Below, in pieces: positions 21,436 through 32,034 of a stretch of 64,000 nucleotides of DNA. The stretch spans positions 124,001-188,000 of the forward strand of contig JAKVLB010000004.1 in the NCBI GenBank assembly GCA_022484595.1, written 5' to 3'. The notes beneath the pieces were generated by a model. It saw only the letters and a list, made by a program, of their open reading frames with translations. It was not told where the DNA came from and searched no databases. This stretch comes from Mageeibacillus sp. GTDB lineage: Bacteria; Bacillota; Clostridia; Saccharofermentanales; Saccharofermentanaceae. The number at the start of each line of letters is the position of its first letter. The stretch's first letter is position 1. The translations under genes were made by a program, and so were the position numbers.

Positions 21436-21798
21436 TTATAATGCCGACCCTCTGACTTTCTGAATGAGCTTCACTACCTCGTCGGGTTGCAAGACCCTGC
21501 CATAGGAGATAACTTTCCCGTCAACTACCAGTGCCGGAGTAGTCATGACTCCGTAGGCGGCAATCTGCGAGAAGTCGGTTATATGGTCTATAGCCGTGTC
21601 CATGCCCAGCTGATCGAGAGCCGCTTTTGTTGCTGCCTCCAGCGCGTTGCACTTCGCGCAGCCTGATCCGAGTATCTTTACGCTTGCACCTTCTGCATTT
21701 GCGTTTAGGGCCTTTTCCGTGCTTTCGCTGTCACAGTTGACATGGCAGCAGCAAGCAGCAGGTTTTTCCTCTTGGTTTTTCTTTTCGAAAAGTGACAT
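21436..21798 (-). CDS. thioredoxin-fold redox protein
   Basis: 120 residues. The redox site is GSGCAKCNAL (Cys-x-x-Cys around residues 46-49), followed by the cis-Pro segment TTPALVVDGKVISYG, as in the small redox-active disulfide proteins of the MTH895/TM0996 type. An N-terminal tail has an extra Cys cluster (ACCCHVNC). It is the last gene of the ArsR-permease-DUF6485 operon, and probably supplies or removes electrons for the permease-linked process. The substrate is unknown. Confidence 0.8.
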   Translation of the reverse strand: MSLFEKKNQEEKPAACCCHVNCDSESTEKALNANAEGASVKILGSGCAKCNALEAATKAALDQLGMDTAIDHITDFSQIAAYGVMTTPALVVDGKVISYGRVLQPDEVVKLIQKVRGSAL

Positions 21799-21810
21799 GA
21801 TAGTTTCCTC

Positions 21811-22011
21811 CTAATTTTGATTGTTATTTTCAAATCTATTTTTAAGAACAAGATAATGGTTAAGATTGCTTTTATCACCGCCGTTATCCGGGAACAGACA
21901 ATATGGCAGACTGTCTGACTCTCGGTGTTTGATAACGCAGGCACAGCATCTACCGTGATTTGGACACGCTGTCTTTGGACAGGCGCACGTTTCTACGTTT
22001 GAGCATTCCAC
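21811..22011 (-). CDS. Cys-rich DUF6485-like small protein
   Basis: 66 residues starting at GTG (22011), with AGGAGG 6-7 bases upstream. Seven or more cysteines are packed in the first 40 residues (ETCACPKTACPNHGRCCACV, then LPYCLF), the pattern of the DUF6485 family, probably a metal- or thiol-binding protein. It lies between the permease and the thioredoxin-fold protein, an arrangement that recurs in anaerobes. The precise role is unknown. Confidence 0.7.
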   Translation of the reverse strand: MECSNVETCACPKTACPNHGRCCACVIKHRESDSLPYCLFPDNGGDKSNLNHYLVLKNRFENNNQN

Positions 22012-22022
22012 GATAATTCCTC

Positions 22023-23036
22023 CTAAACAATAAGTGGTTGAATTGCATTGAACAGATAGCCGACGATAATTATTCCTGCGGTGCAGATGCCGATAAACAG
22101 GCCCAGCAGTTTTGGTTTGACTGCTTTGCGGAGCATGATAAGAGAGGGAAGAGAAAGCGTTGTGACTGCCATCATAAAGGAGAGGATGCTGCCGAGCAGC
22201 GCACCTTTTTCGAAAAGAGTTTCCGCAATCGGAATGGTGCCGAAAATGTCAGCGTACATCGGAACGCCGATCAGCGTCGCCAGAACCACGCCGAAAGGAT
22301 TATTGCTGCCGAGTACCGTTTCAACCCAGCTTTCAGGAATCCAGTTGTGGATAACAGCACCGATGCCTACACCGGCAAGGATGTACGGGAATACCTTTTT
22401 TAAGGTTGATACCATCTGCTCTTTTGCGTAAACCAGGCGATCTTTCTTTGTCAGATCCAAAGATTCAATATCTACGCGGCCTGCCGACATAATGAAGCTC
22501 TCAACATATTTTTCCATATGCAGTTTCTCAATCAGAGTGCCGCCGGCAACCGCGATAACAAGACCGAGAACAACATAAGTAACGGCGATTTTGAAGCCAA
22601 AAATACTCATGAGCAGAAGCAGTGAGCCGAGGTCTACCATCGGGGAAGAAATAAGGAACGAGAAGGTCACGCCCAGCGGCAGACCTGCACCGGTAAAGCC
22701 GATAAAAAGCGGAATGGACGAACAGGAGCAGAAAGGTGTTACAGTACCCAGCAAAGCCGCTACCGTATTCGCGCCGATTCCGTGAAAACGACCGAGAATT
22801 TTTCTGCTTCGTTCCGGGGGAAAATAGCTTTGAATATAGCTGATAAGGAAAATGAGAAAACACAGCAGCACTACAATTTTAATCACATCATAGATGAAAA
22901 ACTGTAAGCTGCCTGCCCATCGGTCAGTGAGATTCAGCCCCAGCGCCGAAAGGCCGGAGCCGATGACTGCATAGAGCCATTTCATTCCGAGGATCTGGTT
23001 TTGGAAGAAGTCCCATATTGCCTTTATTACCTGCAT
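22023..23036 (-). CDS. permease of the DUF318/ArsP-like family
   Basis: 337 residues with about eight to ten hydrophobic segments. The conserved segment TPFCSCSSIPLFIGFTGAG (about residues 99-117) identifies the predicted permease family (YraQ/ArsP), whose ArsP members export trivalent organoarsenicals. The loop around residues 180-200 is charged and cytoplasmic. It follows an ArsR-type regulator by 31 bases and precedes DUF6485 and a thioredoxin-fold protein. The substrate could be methylated arsenic, another thiophilic compound, or something else; the sequence cannot decide. Confidence 0.82.
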   Translation of the reverse strand: MQVIKAIWDFFQNQILGMKWLYAVIGSGLSALGLNLTDRWAGSLQFFIYDVIKIVVLLCFLIFLISYIQSYFPPERSRKILGRFHGIGANTVAALLGTVTPFCSCSSIPLFIGFTGAGLPLGVTFSFLISSPMVDLGSLLLLMSIFGFKIAVTYVVLGLVIAVAGGTLIEKLHMEKYVESFIMSAGRVDIESLDLTKKDRLVYAKEQMVSTLKKVFPYILAGVGIGAVIHNWIPESWVETVLGSNNPFGVVLATLIGVPMYADIFGTIPIAETLFEKGALLGSILSFMMAVTTLSLPSLIMLRKAVKPKLLGLFIGICTAGIIIVGYLFNAIQPLIV

Positions 23037-23067
23037 GAAAATAAAAACTCGCTTTCAATTATGATAA

Positions 23068-23358
23068 TCAGCTATTCTCGTTCTGCGATGTGAGTTCGTG
23101 TAACAGCGCTATCGCTTTCGCACTGCCGGTATCGCTGATCCGGTAATGCGTCCATTTGCCCTCCTGACGATAATCAACGATTCCCGATTCGCACAAAAGC
23201 TTCATATGGTAGGAAAGCGTTGATTGCGGCAGATCCATCTGTTCAATCAAAACACAGGCGCATTTCTCGCCGCCGCGCAGCAGCTCAAGAATACGCAACC
23301 GCTTCTCGTCGCAGAACGCCCTGAATACTTTTGCCTGTTCCTCATATTCCGTTTCCAT
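23068..23358 (-). CDS. ArsR-family regulator
   Basis: 96 residues with a winged HTH: KRLRILELLRGGEKCACVLIEQMDLPQSTLSYHMKLL. The CAC cysteine pair at the start of the recognition region resembles the ELCVCDL metal-binding motif of ArsR proteins that sense As(III)/Sb(III). It is the first gene of a minus-strand operon with the permease. An SD (GAGGTGA) precedes its ATG. Confidence 0.88.
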   Translation of the reverse strand: METEYEEQAKVFRAFCDEKRLRILELLRGGEKCACVLIEQMDLPQSTLSYHMKLLCESGIVDYRQEGKWTHYRISDTGSAKAIALLHELTSQNENS

Positions 23359-25211: not shown

Positions 25212-25249
25212 ATTATGCGCAGATATTCCTATAGTGTCAATAGGAATAT
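25212..25249 (-). promoter_or_regulatory. promoter of the SGNH-hydE operon inside an inverted repeat
   Basis: On the minus strand TTGACA (25235-25240), a 17-base spacer and CATAAT (25212-25217) form a strong promoter. The -35 lies inside a perfect 10-base inverted repeat, ATATTCCTAT / ATAGGAATAT (25223-25249, 7-base centre). Bound protein there would block RNA polymerase. The CCTATTGACA decamer recurs at the met leader and iscS promoters. Confidence 0.7.
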
Positions 25250-25294: not shown

Positions 25295-25323
25295 TTGACA
25301 TGGTGGGTTAGTAGGGTTATCAT
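25295..25323 (+). promoter_or_regulatory. promoter of the met operon leader
   Basis: TTGACA (25295-25300), a 17-base spacer and TATCAT (25318-25323); transcription would start near 25330, about 30 bases before the leader ATG. It also carries CCTATTGACA over the -35, and GGGTTAGTAGGGTTA within the spacer. Confidence 0.75.
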
Positions 25324-25358
25324 CTCACCATAAACCTTACGAAAGGAGGCCGACAGAC

Positions 25359-25472
25359 ATGAAGTATTATGACAGCAACAACCGTATGTGTATGCGAATG
25401 CTTTACTCCCGGGCAAATATAATGGCCGGAATCATGCCTTCGGTTTCCGATATGATTTCGCGATGTCGATAA
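25359..25472 (+). CDS. Met-rich leader peptide (37 codons) of the met operon
   Basis: Starts at an ATG with AAAGGAGG 9 bases upstream, so ribosomes should load well. Of 36 internal codons six are Met (10, 12, 14, 22, 26, 32), with MCMRM at codons 10-14; Cys codons are at 11 and 36. Codons 15-20 (25402-25415) are exactly complementary to 14 bases in the left arm of the downstream terminator (25503-25516). This is the layout of an attenuation leader peptide responding to charged tRNA-Met, possibly also tRNA-Cys. No similar protein is known to me, and the peptide itself need not have a function. Confidence 0.75.
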   Translation: MKYYDSNNRMCMRMLYSRANIMAGIMPSVSDMISRCR

Positions 25473-25540
25473 TACAATAAATGTATAAAAGCCATAGCCA
25501 GATGCCCGGGAGTAAATTTTGCCTCCGGGCATCTTTTTTT
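25402..25540 (+). promoter_or_regulatory. transcription attenuator: antiterminator and terminator pairings before metY
   Basis: Three segments compete. A (25402-25415, TTTACTCCCGGGCA) lies in the leader ORF; B (25503-25516, TGCCCGGGAGTAAA) is its exact complement; C (25525-25533, CCGGGCATC) pairs with GATGCCCGG at 25501-25509 and is followed by seven T. A:B and B:C are mutually exclusive, so pairing of A with B should let polymerase continue into metY. Whether a ribosome waiting at the Met codons favours A:B or blocks it depends on its exact footprint, which the sequence alone does not settle. Confidence 0.7.
25501..25540 (+). terminator. intrinsic terminator in the met leader
   Basis: GATGCCCGG / CCGGGCATC with a 15-base loop and a TTTTTTT run, 50 bases before the metY ATG. 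Confidence 0.85.
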
Positions 25541-25589
25541 CAGGTAAACCATAACAAAATAAAACGTATCATTAAAGGAGAACATTAAA

Positions 25590-26876
25590 ATGGCTAACTA
25601 TAAATTCGAGACACTTCAGCTTCACGTAGGACAGGAGAATGCAGATCCGCAGACAGATTCACGGGCGGTACCGATTTATCAGACGACATCGTATGTATTC
25701 CACAATTCACAGCATGCGTCGGACAGATTCAATCTCGCGGACGCAGGAAACATATACGGAAGACTTACAAACTCAACACAGGACGTTCTTGAGAAGAGGG
25801 TAGCTGCCCTTGAAGGCGGAGCAGCGGCGCTTGCAGTCGCATCCGGAGCGGCGGCTGTCTCATACACGGTTGAGGCACTCGCGGCAAACGGCGGTCACAT
25901 CGTAGCACAGAAGACAATCTACGGCGGATCTTTCAACCTTCTGGGACACACGCTCCCGCAGTACGGGATAAAAACAACATTTGTCAACGCGCATGACTTA
26001 AACGAGGTGGAGAATGCGATAAGACCTGACACAAGAGCTGTATATCTCGAGACGCTGGGCAATCCGAACAGCGACATTCCGGACATTGACGCGATTGCCG
26101 TGATCGCTCACAACCACGGTCTTCCGCTCGTAATCGACAATACCTTCGGAACGCCTTATCTTATCAGACCGATTGAACACGGAGCCGACATAGTAATACA
26201 TTCGGCGACTAAGTTCTTGGGAGGTCACGGTACAACACTCGGAGGCATAATAGTTGATTCAGGCAAATTTGACTGGAAGGCATCAGGAAACTATCCGCAG
26301 ATAGCGTCGGCAAACCCCAGTTATCACGGAATCTCATTCGCGGACGCGGCAGGTCCCGCAGCTTTTGTAACCTACATTCGCGCAATACTTCTTCGCGACA
26401 CAGGCGCGACGCTCTCGCCGTTCAACGCATTCCTGCTTTTGCAGGGTATCGAGACTCTCTCGCTGAGACTTGAGCGTCATGTGGAGAATACGAAGAAGGT
26501 AGTGGAATTCCTTGCAAACCATCCTCAGGTTGAGAAGGTAAATCATCCTTCACTTCCGGATCATCCGGATCATGCGGTATATAAGAGATATTTTCCGAAC
26601 GGCGGCGGATCAATCTTCACATTTGACATCAGGGGAGGAAAGGAAGAAGCATGGAAGTTCATTGACGCGCTCGAGATTTTCTCGCTGCTCGCTAATGTCG
26701 CTGATGTAAAGAGCCTCGTTATTCACCCTGCATCAACGACGCACTCACAGCTTTCCGAAGAGGAGCTTCTCGATCAGGGAATCAGGCCAAACACGATAAG
26801 ACTTTCAATAGGCACAGAGCATATCGATGATATCATCGCGGATCTCGAAAAGGGATTCGCAGCAGCGAAGGGGTGA
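25590..26876 (+). CDS. metY: O-acetylhomoserine sulfhydrylase (aminocarboxypropyltransferase)
   Basis: 428 residues, the long MetY form of the Cys/Met metabolism PLP enzymes. It makes homocysteine from O-acetylhomoserine and sulfide. The PLP lysine lies in HSATKFLGGHG, and the cofactor ring-stacking YGGSFNL and the N-terminal ETLQLHVGQENADP are typical of MetY. The C-terminal part has the HPASTTHSQL signature. AAAGGAG precedes its ATG. It is the first gene after the attenuator, and its stop overlaps the next gene. Confidence 0.93.
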   Translation: MANYKFETLQLHVGQENADPQTDSRAVPIYQTTSYVFHNSQHASDRFNLADAGNIYGRLTNSTQDVLEKRVAALEGGAAALAVASGAAAVSYTVEALAANGGHIVAQKTIYGGSFNLLGHTLPQYGIKTTFVNAHDLNEVENAIRPDTRAVYLETLGNPNSDIPDIDAIAVIAHNHGLPLVIDNTFGTPYLIRPIEHGADIVIHSATKFLGGHGTTLGGIIVDSGKFDWKASGNYPQIASANPSYHGISFADAAGPAAFVTYIRAILLRDTGATLSPFNAFLLLQGIETLSLRLERHVENTKKVVEFLANHPQVEKVNHPSLPDHPDHAVYKRYFPNGGGSIFTFDIRGGKEEAWKFIDALEIFSLLANVADVKSLVIHPASTTHSQLSEEELLDQGIRPNTIRLSIGTEHIDDIIADLEKGFAAAKG

Positions 26877-27385
26877 TTCCGGTGAAGAACAGGATCAGAA
26901 CCATTGCCATAAGCGGTGTGTTTGCGGCATTGGTATTCATTGGAACGGAACTTCGTATTCCTACAGCTATCGGATATATAAACCTGGGAGACGCGGTGAT
27001 ACTCATATCATCGTTTCTCATAGGACCGTTAGCGGCATTCCCGGCGGCGATAGGTTCTGCCCTGGGGGATCTGGTCGCCGGGTATCCGGTCTATATTTTT
27101 CCGACATTCATAATCAAAGGACTTATGGGTCTGACGGCCGGATTCGTTTTGAAATCAGACGGTGAAAAGAAAATAAACCTTATAAGAAGGATACTTGCAG
27201 GTCTGGCCGCGGAAATAATAATGGTTGCGGGATATTTCGGAGCGGAAGTGATTCTTTACGGAATATCGGCAGCGGCCGGCTCGGTCCCGTTCAATCTGGT
27301 TCAGGGCTTTGCGGCAATAGCTGTATCGCTTCCGCTGTCATACACTCTCTTGCCGCGACTAAAGAAATTAGCAGCAATCAAGTAA
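26873..27385 (+). CDS. ECF transporter S component (possible MtsT-type)
   Basis: 170 residues, about six membrane segments. It begins TIAISGVFAALVFIGTEL and continues INLGDAVILISSFLIGPLAA, the pattern of S components that capture a vitamin or metabolite for an energy-coupling factor module encoded elsewhere. The GTG start at 26873 overlaps the metY stop (GTGA); a GTG at 26882 is possible. Its location inside a sulfur amino acid operon suggests a methionine- or homocysteine-related substrate, as proposed for MtsT in other Firmicutes; this is inference from context. Confidence 0.75.
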   Translation: MIPVKNRIRTIAISGVFAALVFIGTELRIPTAIGYINLGDAVILISSFLIGPLAAFPAAIGSALGDLVAGYPVYIFPTFIIKGLMGLTAGFVLKSDGEKKINLIRRILAGLAAEIIMVAGYFGAEVILYGISAAAGSVPFNLVQGFAAIAVSLPLSYTLLPRLKKLAAIK

Positions 27386-27403
27386 GAAATCAGGAGTATA
27401 AAT

Positions 27404-28561
27404 ATGAGCAGCAATTTTGAAACTGCCGTGATACACGGCGGCATATACGGAGACGCCCTTACGGGCGCGGTGAACACTCCGATCTATCAGACTTCGACAT
27501 ACGAGCAGCAGGGTTTGGGAGAGAACAGGGGCTGGGAATATTCCCGAACCGGGAACCCTACCCGCACTGCCCTCGAGGCGCTGATTGCAGAGCTCGAGGG
27601 AGGCCGCCACGGCTTTGCATTCGGCTCAGGGCTCGCGGCGATTACCACGGTACTGTCGCTTTTCGCGAAGGGAGACCGGATCCTGATCTCGAGCAACGTA
27701 TACGGCGGGACGTATCGTGTCCTTGACAAAGTCTTCAGACATTTCGGGATTGAGTATCAGATTGCGGATACAACGGATCCGGATGCGGTGGAGAAGGTGT
27801 TCACGGAAGACGTGAAGGCGGTACTTATCGAGAGCCCTGCAAACCCGCTGCTTACCATTACTGACATAAGAAAGATATCTGAAATCGCACATGAACATGA
27901 CGCTCTGTCAATCGTTGATAACACGTTTATGACACCGTATCTTCAGCAGCCGCTAAAGCTCGGTGCTGACATCGTGGTTCATTCGGCGACCAAGTATCTG
28001 GGAGGGCACAGCGACCTGGTTGCGGGACTCGCAGTGGTGAATGACGATGACCTCGCGGAGCGCATCGGCTTCCTGCAGAACGCAGAAGGCGGCATACCCG
28101 GTCCTTTCGATTCGTTTCTTCTCATCAGAGGCATAAAGACCCTCGCGGTACGCATGGACAGGCATGTCGGGAATGCGGAGAAGATTGCGGCGTTCCTCAG
28201 TGAAAACAAGGCGGTAAAGAACATCTATTATCCGGGACTTCCGGCCGCGCAGGGTTATGAGATCAACAAAGCCCAGGCTCGAAACGGCGGCGCTATGATG
28301 TCTTTCGAGCTTTATGAGGAGTACGACATCAGGACCTTCTTCAAATCTTTGAAACTTGTGGCGCTCGCGGAAAGCCTCGGGGGCGTGGAAAGCCTTGTGT
28401 GCCATCCCGCATCAATGACACACGCCTCCATCCCGTTCGAAGTAAGACAGAAGGTCGGGATAACAGAGGGGCTCATCCGACTCTCTCCCGGCATCGAAAA
28501 TGCGGAGGACATCATAGACGACCTTCAGCAGGCAATAGAAAAAAGCGAGGCCAGGAAATGA
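27404..28561 (+). CDS. cystathionine gamma-lyase/homocysteine lyase (MccB-like)
   Basis: 385 residues, a trans-sulfuration PLP enzyme. The PLP Lys lies in HSATKYLGGHSD, and the substrate/cofactor segments YSRTGNPTRTALE and NVYGGTYRV are present. It is closer to Bacillus MccB (HGGI-x-GD-x-TGAV... start, ESLGGVESLVCHPASMTHASIP) than to MetB, so it may cleave cystathionine to cysteine, but MetB or MetC activity cannot be excluded. The stop overlaps the next gene's ATG (ATGA), giving a tight pair. Confidence 0.85.
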   Translation: MSSNFETAVIHGGIYGDALTGAVNTPIYQTSTYEQQGLGENRGWEYSRTGNPTRTALEALIAELEGGRHGFAFGSGLAAITTVLSLFAKGDRILISSNVYGGTYRVLDKVFRHFGIEYQIADTTDPDAVEKVFTEDVKAVLIESPANPLLTITDIRKISEIAHEHDALSIVDNTFMTPYLQQPLKLGADIVVHSATKYLGGHSDLVAGLAVVNDDDLAERIGFLQNAEGGIPGPFDSFLLIRGIKTLAVRMDRHVGNAEKIAAFLSENKAVKNIYYPGLPAAQGYEINKAQARNGGAMMSFELYEEYDIRTFFKSLKLVALAESLGGVESLVCHPASMTHASIPFEVRQKVGITEGLIRLSPGIENAEDIIDDLQQAIEKSEARK

Positions 28562-29475
28562 GCTTATACAAATCAATGAAGGAACTGATTGGAAACACAC
28601 CGTTGGTGGAGCTTTCCGAAGCAGAGAAGACGATGCCCGTTGGGCTACGGATATTTGCGAAACTCGAACTCTACAATCCCGCCGGAAGCGTCAAGGACAG
28701 GATTGGAGAATACATGATAGAAGACGCGGAAAGGAGAGGGCTGTTAAAGCCCGGATCGACAATAATAGAAGGCACTGCCGGCAATACAGGCTTAGGCATC
28801 GCGTTCGCTGCCATCGGGAAAGGCTATCACGTGATATTCGTGGTACCGACCAAATTCTCGGAGGAGAAGCAGACGCTGATGCGGGCTCTCGGAGCAGAGA
28901 TAATCAATACTCCAAGAGAAAACGGGATGCTTGGAGCTGAGGCAAAGGCCGAAGAGCTCAAGGCACAGATACCGGGATCGATCTCGCTCCGGCAGTTCAA
29001 GAATCCCGCAAATCCCAAGGCTCACTATGAGACTACGGGACCTGAGATTTACAGAGACCTCGAAGGGAAGATCGACTACGTAGTGGCGGGTGCCGGATCG
29101 GGAGGAACCTATTCCGGGATACTGAAGTATCTCAAGGAGAAAGATCCGAATATCAAAGGCGTTCTCGCGGATCCGATCGGATCGACGATGGGCGGAGGCG
29201 AGCACGGTGATTACAACATTGAAGGCATCGGAAACGATTTCATAGCAGACACCATGGACATGAGACTGGTCGATCAGGTCATAAAGATTAACGATGCTGA
29301 CGCATTCGAGGGTTCCAGATATCTTGCATCTCATGAGGGCATCATCGCGGGTTCTTCATCCGGAGCAGCATTCTCGGCGGCAAGGAAGCTCGCAGCGTCG
29401 GGTGCGATAGGAAACGTGGTCGTGGTCTTTCCGGACAGGGGAGACAGGTACTTCAGTAAGGGGCTGTTCAAATGA
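28558..29475 (+). CDS. cystathionine beta-synthase/cysteine synthase family (MccA-like)
   Basis: 305 residues from the ATG at 28558, overlapping the previous stop. A fold-type II PLP enzyme: the cofactor Lys is in NPAGSVKDRIGEYM and the substrate loop is EGTAGNTGLGIAF. The C-terminal half (GSGGTYSGILKYLKEK, GSTMGGGEHGDYNIEGIGN, GSSSGAAFSAA, VVFPDRGDRYFSK) matches Bacillus MccA, which condenses O-acetylserine with homocysteine, better than CysK. With the MccB-like gene before it, a reverse trans-sulfuration route from methionine to cysteine is likely. Confidence 0.82.
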   Translation: MSLYKSMKELIGNTPLVELSEAEKTMPVGLRIFAKLELYNPAGSVKDRIGEYMIEDAERRGLLKPGSTIIEGTAGNTGLGIAFAAIGKGYHVIFVVPTKFSEEKQTLMRALGAEIINTPRENGMLGAEAKAEELKAQIPGSISLRQFKNPANPKAHYETTGPEIYRDLEGKIDYVVAGAGSGGTYSGILKYLKEKDPNIKGVLADPIGSTMGGGEHGDYNIEGIGNDFIADTMDMRLVDQVIKINDADAFEGSRYLASHEGIIAGSSSGAAFSAARKLAASGAIGNVVVVFPDRGDRYFSKGLFK

Positions 29476-30491
29476 GCGAAGACATACTTTTCAAACTGAC
29501 TCATGTTACCAAAGTTTTCGGTATCGGAGACAAGCAGGTCAAAGCGATAGATGACGTGAGCCTTGAGATAAGGAAAGGTGAGATTTTCGGAATCATCGGA
29601 ATGAGCGGTGCCGGAAAATCCACTTTGGTGAGGACACTGAACGGGCTCGAGAAGGTGAGCGGAGGAACAGTCTTTTTCGAAGGGCAGAGCCTGAATGAAA
29701 TGAAAGGAAGGGAGATTCGGAAGGCGAGACAGTCCATGGGAATGATATTCCAGGGATTCAATCTCATGAAGCAGAAGGATGCCCTGAGAAACGTCGAGCT
29801 CCCGATGAAGATTTCCGGAATAGGAAAGAAGGAAAGAAGACAGAGGGCTCTCGAGATGATCAGGACCGTCGGCCTCGAAGAGAAGGTGAAAGCATATCCT
29901 TCAGAGCTGTCGGGCGGACAGAAGCAGAGGCTCGCGATAGCAAGGGCGCTTACCATGAGACCCAAGGTGCTGCTCTGCGACGAAGCTACTTCCGCGCTGG
30001 ATCCGAAAATAACTCTCGAGATACTGAATCTTCTGCAGGATATCAACATCCGTACCGGGATCACGATAATAATCATCACACACGAGATGGATGTCATCGA
30101 GAAGATCTGCAGCAGGGTAGCGATAATCGACAACGGAAAGCTCAGTGAGACCGGCGAGGTGACACAGATTTTTACAAACCCTCAAAGCCTCGCGACAAAG
30201 CGTCTGGTCTTTCCTTCAAAGGAAACGGAAATGCCGTTCGACATGACGGACAGGCGGTGTTTACGCATAGTGTTCGACGGGCACTCGGCGAGAGAGACGA
30301 TAATCTGCAATCTCGTGGAAGAAACCGGAGAGAAGATTAACATTCTTGCCGCAAACACAAAAAGCGTGGCAGGACAGGGATTCGGTCAGATGATAATCGA
30401 ACTGCCGGACAGGAAAGAAGGCGGAGAAAAGGTTCTTGAATACTTCAGGAAACACGGAGTACACGCCGAGGAAATCGGAGAGGAGGAGTGA
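29472..30491 (+). CDS. metN: methionine ABC transporter ATP-binding protein
   Basis: 339 residues. The ABC domain has Walker A GMSGAGKS (43-50), signature LSGGQKQR and Walker B VLLCDEATSALD, and the C-terminal ~75 residues (from about 265) are the NIL ligand-binding domain in which methionine inhibits the importer. Start overlaps the upstream gene's stop (ATGA). Neighbours are metI and metQ, the usual MetNIQ set. Confidence 0.95.
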   Translation: MSEDILFKLTHVTKVFGIGDKQVKAIDDVSLEIRKGEIFGIIGMSGAGKSTLVRTLNGLEKVSGGTVFFEGQSLNEMKGREIRKARQSMGMIFQGFNLMKQKDALRNVELPMKISGIGKKERRQRALEMIRTVGLEEKVKAYPSELSGGQKQRLAIARALTMRPKVLLCDEATSALDPKITLEILNLLQDINIRTGITIIIITHEMDVIEKICSRVAIIDNGKLSETGEVTQIFTNPQSLATKRLVFPSKETEMPFDMTDRRCLRIVFDGHSARETIICNLVEETGEKINILAANTKSVAGQGFGQMIIELPDRKEGGEKVLEYFRKHGVHAEEIGEEE

Positions 30492-30492
30492 C

Positions 30493-31131
30493 ATGGTTCA
30501 GATAATCATAAAAGGGTTCGTTGAAACTCTTGAGATGACCCTGATATCCGTATTAGCGGCATACGTTATAGGAATGCCGTTCGGAATCCTCCTGGCAGTA
30601 ACCGGCAGGGGAGGAATAGCGGAGAACAGGGCGGTCTCGTTCATCATAGGAACAATCATGAACATTGCGAGATCGATTCCGTTCCTGATACTTCTTGTCC
30701 TGCTGATTCCTTTCACGAGACTCGCAGTCGGAACATCGCTCGGAACAGAGGCGACAATCGTGCCGCTTACGGTGGGAACCATTCCTATCGTGGCGAGGAT
30801 GGTGGAACAGTCGCTTCATGAAGTCGATCCCGGAGTGATTGAAGCAGCCAAATCAATGGGTGCAGGCAATTTCCGGATAATCTGGGATGTAATCATCCCT
30901 GAAGCGGGGCCTTCACTTCTCAGAGGGACATCAATCAATACGGCAACGGTTCTCGGATATTCCGCGATGGCAGGATTTGTCGGAGGCGGAGGACTCGGGG
31001 ACATAGCAATCCAGTATGGATACTACAGGTATGAGACTGATATCCTGCTGCTGACTGTAGCGATACTTATACTTATCGTTCAGCTGATACAGGGCATCGG
31101 AGATCATACGGCAATCAAAATTACACATTAA
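30493..31131 (+). CDS. metI: methionine ABC transporter permease
   Basis: 212 residues from the ATG at 30493, one base after the metN stop region and preceded by GGAGGAG. It has five membrane segments and the EAA loop EAAKSMGAGNFRIIWDVIIPEA that contacts MetN. Part of the high-affinity methionine importer. Confidence 0.95.
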   Translation: MVQIIIKGFVETLEMTLISVLAAYVIGMPFGILLAVTGRGGIAENRAVSFIIGTIMNIARSIPFLILLVLLIPFTRLAVGTSLGTEATIVPLTVGTIPIVARMVEQSLHEVDPGVIEAAKSMGAGNFRIIWDVIIPEAGPSLLRGTSINTATVLGYSAMAGFVGGGGLGDIAIQYGYYRYETDILLLTVAILILIVQLIQGIGDHTAIKITH

Positions 31132-31146
31132 AAGGAGAAACACATT

Positions 31147-32034
31147 ATGAAAAGGTCAATTAAGAAAATTATTTACACAGCTCTTGCGGGCGTAATCGCA
31201 TTAAACATTCTTGGAGGCTGTGCGAACACATCAGCAAATGAGTCGGTTACTGCCGCATCGGATACAACGTCAGTGGAACAGACATCAGATACAACGTCAG
31301 AGGAACAGACGACGATCAGAATCGGCGCGAGCCTGACTCCGCATGCCGAGATCCTTGAGCAGGCGGCGCCGATTCTTGCAGAGCAGGGTATAACTCTTGA
31401 TATCGTGGCGATCGAAGATTCTGTCACGCCAAATGTCGGCGTCGCGGACGGCTCGCTTGATGCGAACTATTTCCAGCACCAGCCGTATCTTGATCAGTAT
31501 AACGAGGAGAACGGAACTGATATCGTCTCGGCAGGAGCGATTCATTACGAACCGTTTGGAATCTATGCAGGCAAGACAAATTCTCTGGAAGATCTTCCAG
31601 ACGGAGCAATCGTAGCAGTTCCAAATAACGTTACCAATGAAGCCAGAGCGCTCCTGCTCCTTCAGCAGGAAGGCCTGATTACCCTTGCAGACGGCGTCGG
31701 TATTAATGCGACAGTAAACGACATTGCATCGAATCCGAAGAATATACAGATTGAGGAAATAGCGCCTGAGCAGCTGGTAAGATCGCTTCCTGATGTTGAT
31801 ATAGCGATAATCAACGGCAACTATGCGATCGAAGGCGGCCTCAAGGTGGCAGACGCTCTCGCAGTTGAAGCAAATGACGGACTTGCAGCGCAGACATACG
31901 GGAATATTATCGCAGTCAGAGCGGAAGATGCAGACAATCCGGCGATCAAGAAGCTTGTCGAAGTCCTTCAGAGTCCTGAGATCAGCGAATATATCAACGA
32001 GACGTACGGCGGCGCTGTAGTACCTCTTAACTGA
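31147..32034 (+). CDS. metQ: methionine-binding lipoprotein
   Basis: 295 residues of the NlpA/MetQ family. Lipobox ILGGC with Cys25 places it on the outer face of the membrane. Binding-protein segments include GASLTPHAEILEQAAP, DANYFQHQPYLDQYN and GIYAGK. Residues about 38-58 contain an imperfect tandem repeat, SDTTS-V/E-EQT, matched by a 27-bp DNA repeat, forming a short flexible linker. Strong SD AAAAGGAG. Confidence 0.95.
   Translation: MKRSIKKIIYTALAGVIALNILGGCANTSANESVTAASDTTSVEQTSDTTSEEQTTIRIGASLTPHAEILEQAAPILAEQGITLDIVAIEDSVTPNVGVADGSLDANYFQHQPYLDQYNEENGTDIVSAGAIHYEPFGIYAGKTNSLEDLPDGAIVAVPNNVTNEARALLLLQQEGLITLADGVGINATVNDIASNPKNIQIEEIAPEQLVRSLPDVDIAIINGNYAIEGGLKVADALAVEANDGLAAQTYGNIIAVRAEDADNPAIKKLVEVLQSPEISEYINETYGGAVVPLN

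Follow-up and report, generated by a model that had tools for sequence, protein, structure and literature searches.

Control of methionine and cysteine genes in Firmicutes is usually ascribed to riboswitches, T-boxes, or repressors. The stretch of DNA analyzed here (64,000 nucleotides from the 1.92-Mb genome of a Mageeibacillus sp., referred to as the window) carries on its forward strand a methionine/cysteine operon that begins with metY and is preceded by a leader with a short reading frame. An earlier note, made from the sequence of the window, had proposed an attenuator with a methionine-rich leader peptide, had seen no known riboswitch or T-box, and had suggested an Rfam search and a comparison of metY upstream regions. 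The search bears it out: gathering-level matches are absent from the window leader and six related loci, a relaxed threshold yielded sub-threshold matches only, and 11 leaderless metY loci returned nothing but a tRNA. The comparison likewise supports an attenuator with a leader peptide in front of the operon; the interpretation of the note as a whole is partly supported.

Architecture of the leader and its operon

The leader region starts with a sigma-70-type promoter (25295–25323, forward strand, as are all leader features), whose −35 (TTGACA, 25295–25300) and −10 elements (TATCAT, 25318–25323) are separated by a 17-nt spacer and match the consensus in 11 of 12 positions; a promoter scan reported 3 promoter-like sites versus 1.6 expected from shuffling. 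A strong Shine-Dalgarno sequence (AAAGGAGG, 25342–25349), read from the sequence and scored, precedes an open reading frame of 37 codons plus stop (25359–25472), which encodes the peptide MKYYDSNNRMCMRMLYSRANIMAGIMPSVSDMISRCR and contains internal Met codons at positions 10, 12, 14, 22, 26, and 32 and Cys codons at positions 11 and 36. Codons 10–14 read Met-Cys-Met-Arg-Met. The first three (25386–25394) are the proposed starvation-sensing codons, based on mask folding and codon placement in relatives, and the last two (Arg13-Met14; 25395–25400) form a CGA-ATG pair, here called the gate.

A single base separates codon 14 from segment A (TTTACTCCCGGGCA, 25402–25415, with the core CTCCCGGGCA at 25406–25415). 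The exact complement of A, segment B (25503–25516), takes in the greater part of the 5' arm of a terminator of the intrinsic type (25500–25540; hairpin 25500–25534, U-tract to 25540; −21.8 kcal/mol), and can pair either with A, forming an antiterminator, or with the 3' arm of the terminator. Folding and covariation identified two inner antiterminator arms, X (ATGGC, 25422–25426) and X' (GCCAT, 25491–25495). The window leader is more stably folded than dinucleotide-shuffled versions of it (z = −3.38), and its minimum-energy fold is the antiterminated form, with A:B and the inner helix ATGGC:GCCAT. A simple terminator scanner run on the window leader did not report the terminator. Promoter, reading frame with Shine-Dalgarno sequence and six internal Met codons, complementary segments, and terminator are all present where the earlier note had located them.

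The first controlled gene is metY (25590–26876), which encodes a member of the O-acetylhomoserine sulfhydrylase family (TIGR01326; 621.8 bits, cut-off 495.1). The remainder of the putative operon (26873–32034, forward strand), whose co-transcription is suggested by close spacing, comprises genes for an ECF S component and a cystathionine gamma-synthase/lyase-family protein, followed by cysK-like, metN-like, metI, and metQ-like genes; those designated “-like” score below curated cut-offs. Because the products make or import methionine and interconvert it with cysteine, the regulatory loop would be closed.

Several other features lie in the vicinity. An inverted repeat (ATATTCCTATAGTGTCAATAGGAATAT, 25223–25249) upstream of the metY promoter is possibly an operator. 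Behind the operon, the reverse strand encodes an Rrf2-family regulator (PF02082; 33883–34350), which is CymR/IscR-like, with scores below the respective NCBIfam cut-offs. The sequence TAGGTAAGTAGGTT upstream of its gene resembles GGGTTAGTAGGGTT (25305–25318) between the −35 and −10 elements of metY, and ACCTACT-like repeats were seen by eye at the metY promoter in many relatives. Initiation may therefore be controlled as well. A cluster on the reverse strand (21436–23358), encoding a Thioredoxin_3 protein, an ArsP_1 permease, and (by eye) an ArsR-like regulator, is a probable arsenic or metal resistance locus.

Arg-Met leaders in front of related metY genes

The comparison covered 109 metY upstream regions, 29 from the genus and order of the window (window included) and 80 from named contigs labeled Lachnospiraceae, Oscillospiraceae, Treponema, and others. 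A short reading frame (up to 60 codons) with a Shine-Dalgarno score of at least 4 and an in-frame CGN-ATG (Arg-Met) pair, for which CGAATG was preferred if there was a choice, is present in 65 of the 109 regions, including the window; by the same criteria, the other 44 lack such a leader. Ten loci were excluded by eye (L029, L044, L045, L052, L054, L057, L065, L077, L078, and L103), and L022 was omitted because its metY is cut by the contig end. None of the AGA/AGG-ATG candidates among the upstream regions was accepted as a leader.

The leaders fall into two main classes. That of the window (SRA class) follows the pattern CGA ATG nnn nnC TCC CGG GCA nnn nnn ATG GCC GG, in which the core of arm A begins 8 nt downstream of the first base of the Arg-Met ATG. 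The other, the FR class (29 leaders), has the conserved peptide core FxxLxRxNFRxGRM; segment A is missing in 25 of its members, and the four that carry it bridge both classes. In a third group, from the genus of the window, the leaders end in MRM or TRM, mostly followed by the stop codon, and are arranged differently. One form in this genus, CFSC...MRM, has its terminator-complementary segment upstream of Arg-Met and therefore a geometry different from that of the SRA class; several leader forms occur within this single genus.

Some leaders show peculiarities of their own. An in-frame duplication of NFRCGRMCCSCSNS in L009 creates two consecutive Arg-Met gates. In an FR subclass (L007–L011 and L013), CGGAAGTT by the Shine-Dalgarno sequence and start of the leader is complementary to AACTTCCG within the leader reading frame; the leader stop codon begins 22–26 nt before metY, with no terminator found in between, and a translational form of control is possible. 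Genome G675 has two metY copies (L160 and L184), each with its own YRFGRM-type leader and a stop right after Arg-Met.

Covariation of the antiterminator

Among 37 SRA-class leaders (window included; L013 and L026 dropped, and L059, L100, and L111 added by hand), the best downstream complement of A scores 25.9 on average, versus 9.1 (maximum 22) for shuffled sequences. In a set of 31 leaders, from which two misfits and four near-copies of L115 had been dropped, so that relatedness is partly allowed for, A and B form standard pairs at 307 of 310 positions, whereas permutation of B among the leaders yielded a mean of 294.5 and a maximum of 303 (0 of 5000 as good). L083 and L111 depart from the A:B rule. 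The inner helix X:X' covaries as a whole (again, 0 of 5000 permutations as good), with variants such as TTGGCT:AGCCAA, ATGACT:AGTCAT, and AATGAC:GTCATT, and in 12 of the 16 leaders without ATGGC, pairing with the X' of the same leader is better than the median for X' of other leaders (exceptions: L037, L053, L087, and L114). The comparison scores and the A:B covariation exclude chance complementarity of A and B. Covariation thus supports an intrinsic terminator and a mutually exclusive antiterminator. A hairpin between A and X, which also resembles B, was considered and is disfavored, since X is better accounted for by its covariation, as ATGGC, with the GCCAT next to B.

The metY genes of the 80 named loci are 80–87% identical to that of the window, and their relatedness could bring about similar leaders by inheritance without function, or the resemblance could be due to chance. 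The compensatory changes in both helices make this explanation barely credible, as do the recurrence of the leader in front of other genes and the codon bias at the gate, which the metY genes do not share (both described below).

Effect of ribosome position on folding

The consequences of translation were modeled for 34 of the 37 leaders (all except L076, L083, and L111) by placing a mask of 31 nt, a conventional ribosome size, at each codon, folding the parts separately, and summing their energies; thermodynamic folding serves as a proxy for co-transcriptional folding. The formation of A:B was computed on RNA that ends just before the 3' arm of the terminator. An implementation of the mask via forbidden base pairs gave a flat profile at all ribosome positions and was replaced, as the constraint was judged faulty.

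With codons counted from the Met of the Arg-Met pair (position 0), the mean fraction of A:B formed drops from 0.92 with the P-site at −3 to 0.70 at −2, 0.22 on Arg, and 0.01 on Met; it is 0.00 at +8 and recovers to 0.48 at +10, 0.85 at +11, and 0.93 at +17 (window: 0.99, 0.79, 0.09, 0.00, 0.00, 0.70, 0.98, and 0.99, respectively). When the ribosome waits at the upstream Met/Cys codons, A:B forms at 0.92–0.94 in the 34 leaders, so that these codons are, in silico, the last positions at which a waiting ribosome still leaves A free. The mean energy difference (dG of the terminator minus dG of the antiterminator) follows the same course: about −2 at positions −8 to −3 (−1.7 at −3), −5.0 at −2, −9.4 on Arg, −10.6 on Met, near −10.7 through codon +9, and −3.1 at +11. 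The window values are −3.7 to −5.4 at positions −5 to −3 and −18.4 on Met14. A stall at the regulatory codons is therefore predicted to favor antitermination, and a ribosome on or just past Arg-Met to shut the operon most firmly. The caution of the earlier note about direction proved well founded: in the model, the arm stays free while a ribosome waits at codons 10–12 and is covered once codon 13 or 14 occupies the P-site.

The full-length energies lean to the terminator also with the ribosome upstream, which means that read-through requires A:B to form first and to persist. In RNA free of ribosomes, A:B forms at 0.92 on average (window, 0.99) and the energies lean only mildly to the terminator (mean −3.6), so that read-through is predicted in the absence of translation. 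If the ribosome moved on without pausing, A would stay free, which means that the gate needs a real pause or an arrest.

The presence of a reading frame, an antiterminator, and a terminator, together with Met codons at positions 10, 12, and 14, would also fit the main reading of the earlier note, a classical trp-like attenuator that senses charged tRNA-Met, in which a ribosome at the stop codon causes termination and one stalled at Met prevents it. The energies of the window point the same way and make it less distinct from trp-type control, as they favor the terminator more with the ribosome at the last codon (−10.9; mean of all leaders, −4.7, which is intermediate) than at the upstream positions. 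However, a ribosome at the last codon still allows A:B to form before the terminator arm has been transcribed (mean 0.87, above 0.5 in 31 of 34 leaders; window, 0.99), much like RNA without a ribosome, and a ribosome that waits for Met14 itself already sits on A. Moreover, Cys is as prominent as Met in the relatives. This makes a trp-like attenuator improbable.

Proposed regulatory codons and the CGA-AUG gate

Met and Cys codons are concentrated where the model lets a stalled ribosome leave A free. In 28 leaders (L111, four near-copies of L115, and four FR leaders dropped), Met or Cys occupies 70 of the 84 positions at codons −4 to −2, versus 78 of 649 elsewhere (p = 1e-41, ignoring relatedness). 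Cys is found at codon −3 in 22, Cys at −2 in 19, and Met at −4 in 17 of these leaders. The earlier note had proposed charged tRNA-Met, and perhaps tRNA-Cys, as the signal. Cysteine is at least as prominent as methionine in the relatives; charged tRNA may be the signal of the attenuator.

Conservation is strongest not in methionine richness but in the CGA-AUG pair and its constant spacing from the antiterminator, to which the earlier note did not draw attention. The Arg codon of the gate is CGA in 61 of the 65 leaders (CGC in 3 and CGG in 1), whereas in the metY genes of these 65 loci only 16 of 844 Arg codons are CGA, and elsewhere in the leader reading frames themselves 29 of 205. A conserved RNA partner of CGAATG was considered and rejected: its complement (GU allowed) is present in 36 of the 65 leaders, versus a permutation mean of 21.75 (rank fourth of 180), and its occurrences are scattered instead of fixed in place, which speaks for a role of CGAATG in decoding and against one in RNA pairing. 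CGA is decoded more slowly than CGU and CGC in a his-leader assay of Salmonella (PMC4046918).

These observations also bear on whether the reading frame is incidental to a riboswitch or some other element that acts as RNA only. Such an element would account for the conserved long-range pairing and for the letters of A and X, which are constrained by RNA pairing. However, it would have to be one without gathering-level match in Rfam, and it explains neither the concentration of Met/Cys codons at three in-frame positions nor the gate, whose complement lacks a conserved place. We regard it as very unlikely.

A probable ribosome-operated switch

Based on the modeling and the codon placement, it is most likely that a shortage of methionine or cysteine leads to read-through and a pause at CGA-AUG to termination. 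The leader as a whole would then be a transcription attenuator that senses the position of the ribosome, a reading we hold to be probable, with moderate confidence. The ribosome would translate the leader while RNA polymerase moves ahead. As sequence and comparison show, B can pair either with the upstream arm A, assisted by X:X', or with the downstream arm of the terminator. With the P-site at least three codons before Met14, where the ribosome is at the Met/Cys codons, A is computed to be free and A:B to form; once the P-site reaches Arg13 or Met14, and for roughly nine codons thereafter, A is computed to be covered and the terminator to win; farther downstream, A should be free again. If Met- or Cys-tRNA is short, the ribosome would be held just before the gate and the operon would be read. 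If these tRNAs are plentiful, the ribosome would reach CGA-AUG, pause, and cover A during the synthesis of B and the terminator, which would stop transcription. The pause may be caused by the slow decoding of CGA, perhaps together with the nascent chain.

A possible role of the nascent peptide

The FR class differs in that it hints at nascent-peptide sensing. Among its 29 leaders, Arg at −4 is invariant although encoded by six different codons, Asn at −6 is present in 28, Gly at −2 in 27 (four codons), and Leu at −10 in 22. There are no Met or Cys codons between start and Arg-Met in 17 of the 29, so that these leaders have no means of sensing a shortage of tRNA ahead of the gate, which counts against the switch proposed above. 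A profile built from 21 FR peptides proved specific in 31 genomes: apart from its own source leaders and near copies of them, it detected two convincing places, both before metY (L164 and L184). In eight genomes without an FR leader, the profile found nothing below an E value of 0.05.

It is therefore a tentative possibility that Arg-Met is part of a metabolite-responsive arrest peptide. Abundant methionine, cysteine, or a derivative would arrest the ribosome, which would cover A and bring about termination; without the ligand, the ribosome would pass, A would be free, and the operon would be read, with the Met/Cys codons as a second input in leaders of the Lachnospiraceae type. Conservation of the FR core at the amino-acid level, the specificity of the profile, the stop codon that immediately follows Arg-Met in 12 of the 65 leaders, and the requirement for a pause or arrest at the gate all agree with such a peptide. 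However, neither a ligand nor an arrest is known, the residues that precede Arg-Met in the SRA class vary apart from Met, Cys, and Trp, showing none of the conservation of the FR type, and the CGA bias of the gate (25 of 29 also in the FR class) points to decoding as well as to the peptide. Codon preferences at Phe −5 (TTC in 23 of 24) and Gly −2 (GGA in 21 of 27) indicate that some of the conservation of the FR class may reside in the nucleotide sequence.

The two modes of sensing could be historically connected. Arg-Met leaders of Lachnospiraceae, Oscillospiraceae, and Treponema might constitute one widespread family of ribosome-based sulfur amino acid sensors, in which an ancestral, metabolite-responsive FxxLxRxNFRxGRM arrest peptide was replaced by, or overlaid with, hungry Met/Cys codons in the Lachnospiraceae form, to which the window leader belongs; these codons would occupy the last positions from which a stalled ribosome does not yet cover the antiterminator. 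This scenario is conjectural and rather unlikely; if true, the ancestral form would switch off transcription by parking the ribosome on the antiterminator.

Distribution and possible horizontal transfer

In the genome of the window, a 16-base pattern found a single place, which is the leader described here, and a second pattern found eight (three reversed-control hits), of which the other seven are not leaders by eye. Among 398 genomes of the phylum (that of the window counted), the 16-base pattern occurs at six places, judged by eye to be four leaders and two chance matches, with no reversed-control hits among the matches listed; a peptide profile (A1) gave no match in these genomes at an E value of 1e-4, an empty result that is uninformative. 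In the family of G419 (189 genomes), six places were found, all of them within a single genus. The 28 genomes behind chosen named loci yielded 26 places in 22 genomes; six were inspected, together with L112 from the search above, and the six comprise three leaders whose downstream gene is not metY and three chance matches; the other 20 were taken as metY leaders. A 14-base pattern found 12 places in 11 of 148 genomes of the family of G395 (one reversed-control hit), comprising, by eye, five leaders (L196 is L112 again) and seven chance matches. In nine genomes of the genus of G416, the pattern search returned G416 itself only.

The genes behind SRA-class leaders other than metY are a metQ-like gene (L125, from Butyrivibrio sp. 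MC2013), two-permease amino-acid ABC transporters (L112 and L145, scanned; L197, by eye), whose permeases have their best curated models, including ectoine and cystine permeases, below cut-offs, and a gene without family match (L148). L112, L125, L145, and L148 were included in the permutation and mask sets.

In a quick tree of MetY, the window protein groups with L076 (SH-aLRT 80) among mostly Lachnospiraceae-labeled loci and apart from other members of its genus. The leader classes are clustered on this tree yet change often (37 changes versus 56.5 when shuffled). Together, the placement and the class pattern suggest, with modest support, that metY moved horizontally with its leader. Five spirochete loci labeled Treponema (L035, L060, L081, L098, and L105) have metY genes that are 83–84% identical to that of the window and are preceded by FR-class leaders; a joint transfer of metY and leader between phyla is likely in their case.

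Comparison with known leader peptides

Attenuators of the trp/his type combine a short reading frame that contains regulatory codons with exclusive antiterminator and terminator structures, and use the position of the ribosome as a signal. The window leader shares a reading frame with regulatory codons, mutually exclusive hairpins, and, as proposed, ribosome position as the signal, but differs in that the antiterminator arm lies inside the reading frame and follows a fixed CGA-AUG pair. In the trp attenuator, a lack of translation leads to termination, whereas leaders of the window class are predicted to be read through, as judged by A:B formation without a ribosome, even though the full-length energies lean to the terminator. 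In the tna operon, arrest of the ribosome switches the operon on; the prediction for the Arg-Met leaders is the opposite, with a ribosome on Arg-Met turning the operon off. Peptides of the TnaC type, which are ligand-dependent arrest peptides (PMC8429421), nevertheless provide a possible model for the residue-conserved FRxGRM peptide.

Leader peptides for related purposes have been described in other bacteria. The uORFC-8-2 leader of cysS in Rhodobacterales likewise has a short reading frame, in which tandem Cys codons stand ahead of an intrinsic terminator, and read-through has been proposed to occur on shortage of tRNA-Cys (PMC8632094). It differs from the window leader in that it belongs to Alphaproteobacteria, precedes cysS, and has its Cys codons within the first stem, and the accessible text of that report does not mention an Arg-Met gate (PMC8632094); in the window leader, Met-Cys-Met stands before arm A and the gene is metY. 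In Actinobacteria, leader peptides with Cys codons precede sulfur genes in cys/cbs operons, but, as far as the accessible account goes, the Cys run is near the stop codon and a conserved terminator hairpin is lacking (Mycobacterium) (PMC1262725). In bacilli, histidine leader peptides replace the T-box in front of hisS paralogs and hisZ (PMC2965389), which is likewise attenuation in Firmicutes, though for another amino acid and other genes; a Met/Cys leader is not mentioned in the accessible part of that study. Among titles and the beginnings of abstracts in the open-access literature, no description of such a leader before metY was found.

Leader peptides that sense cysteine or histidine are thus already known, and what is new here is the geometry and the possible arrest peptide. 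Many bacteria of the gut and rumen appear to have Arg-Met-pair switches before this kind of gene, and so widespread a ribosome-operated switch would explain control where Rfam shows none. It would offer testable rules, namely the CGA-AUG gate and read-through without translation, and a candidate bacterial arrest peptide for sulfur amino acids.
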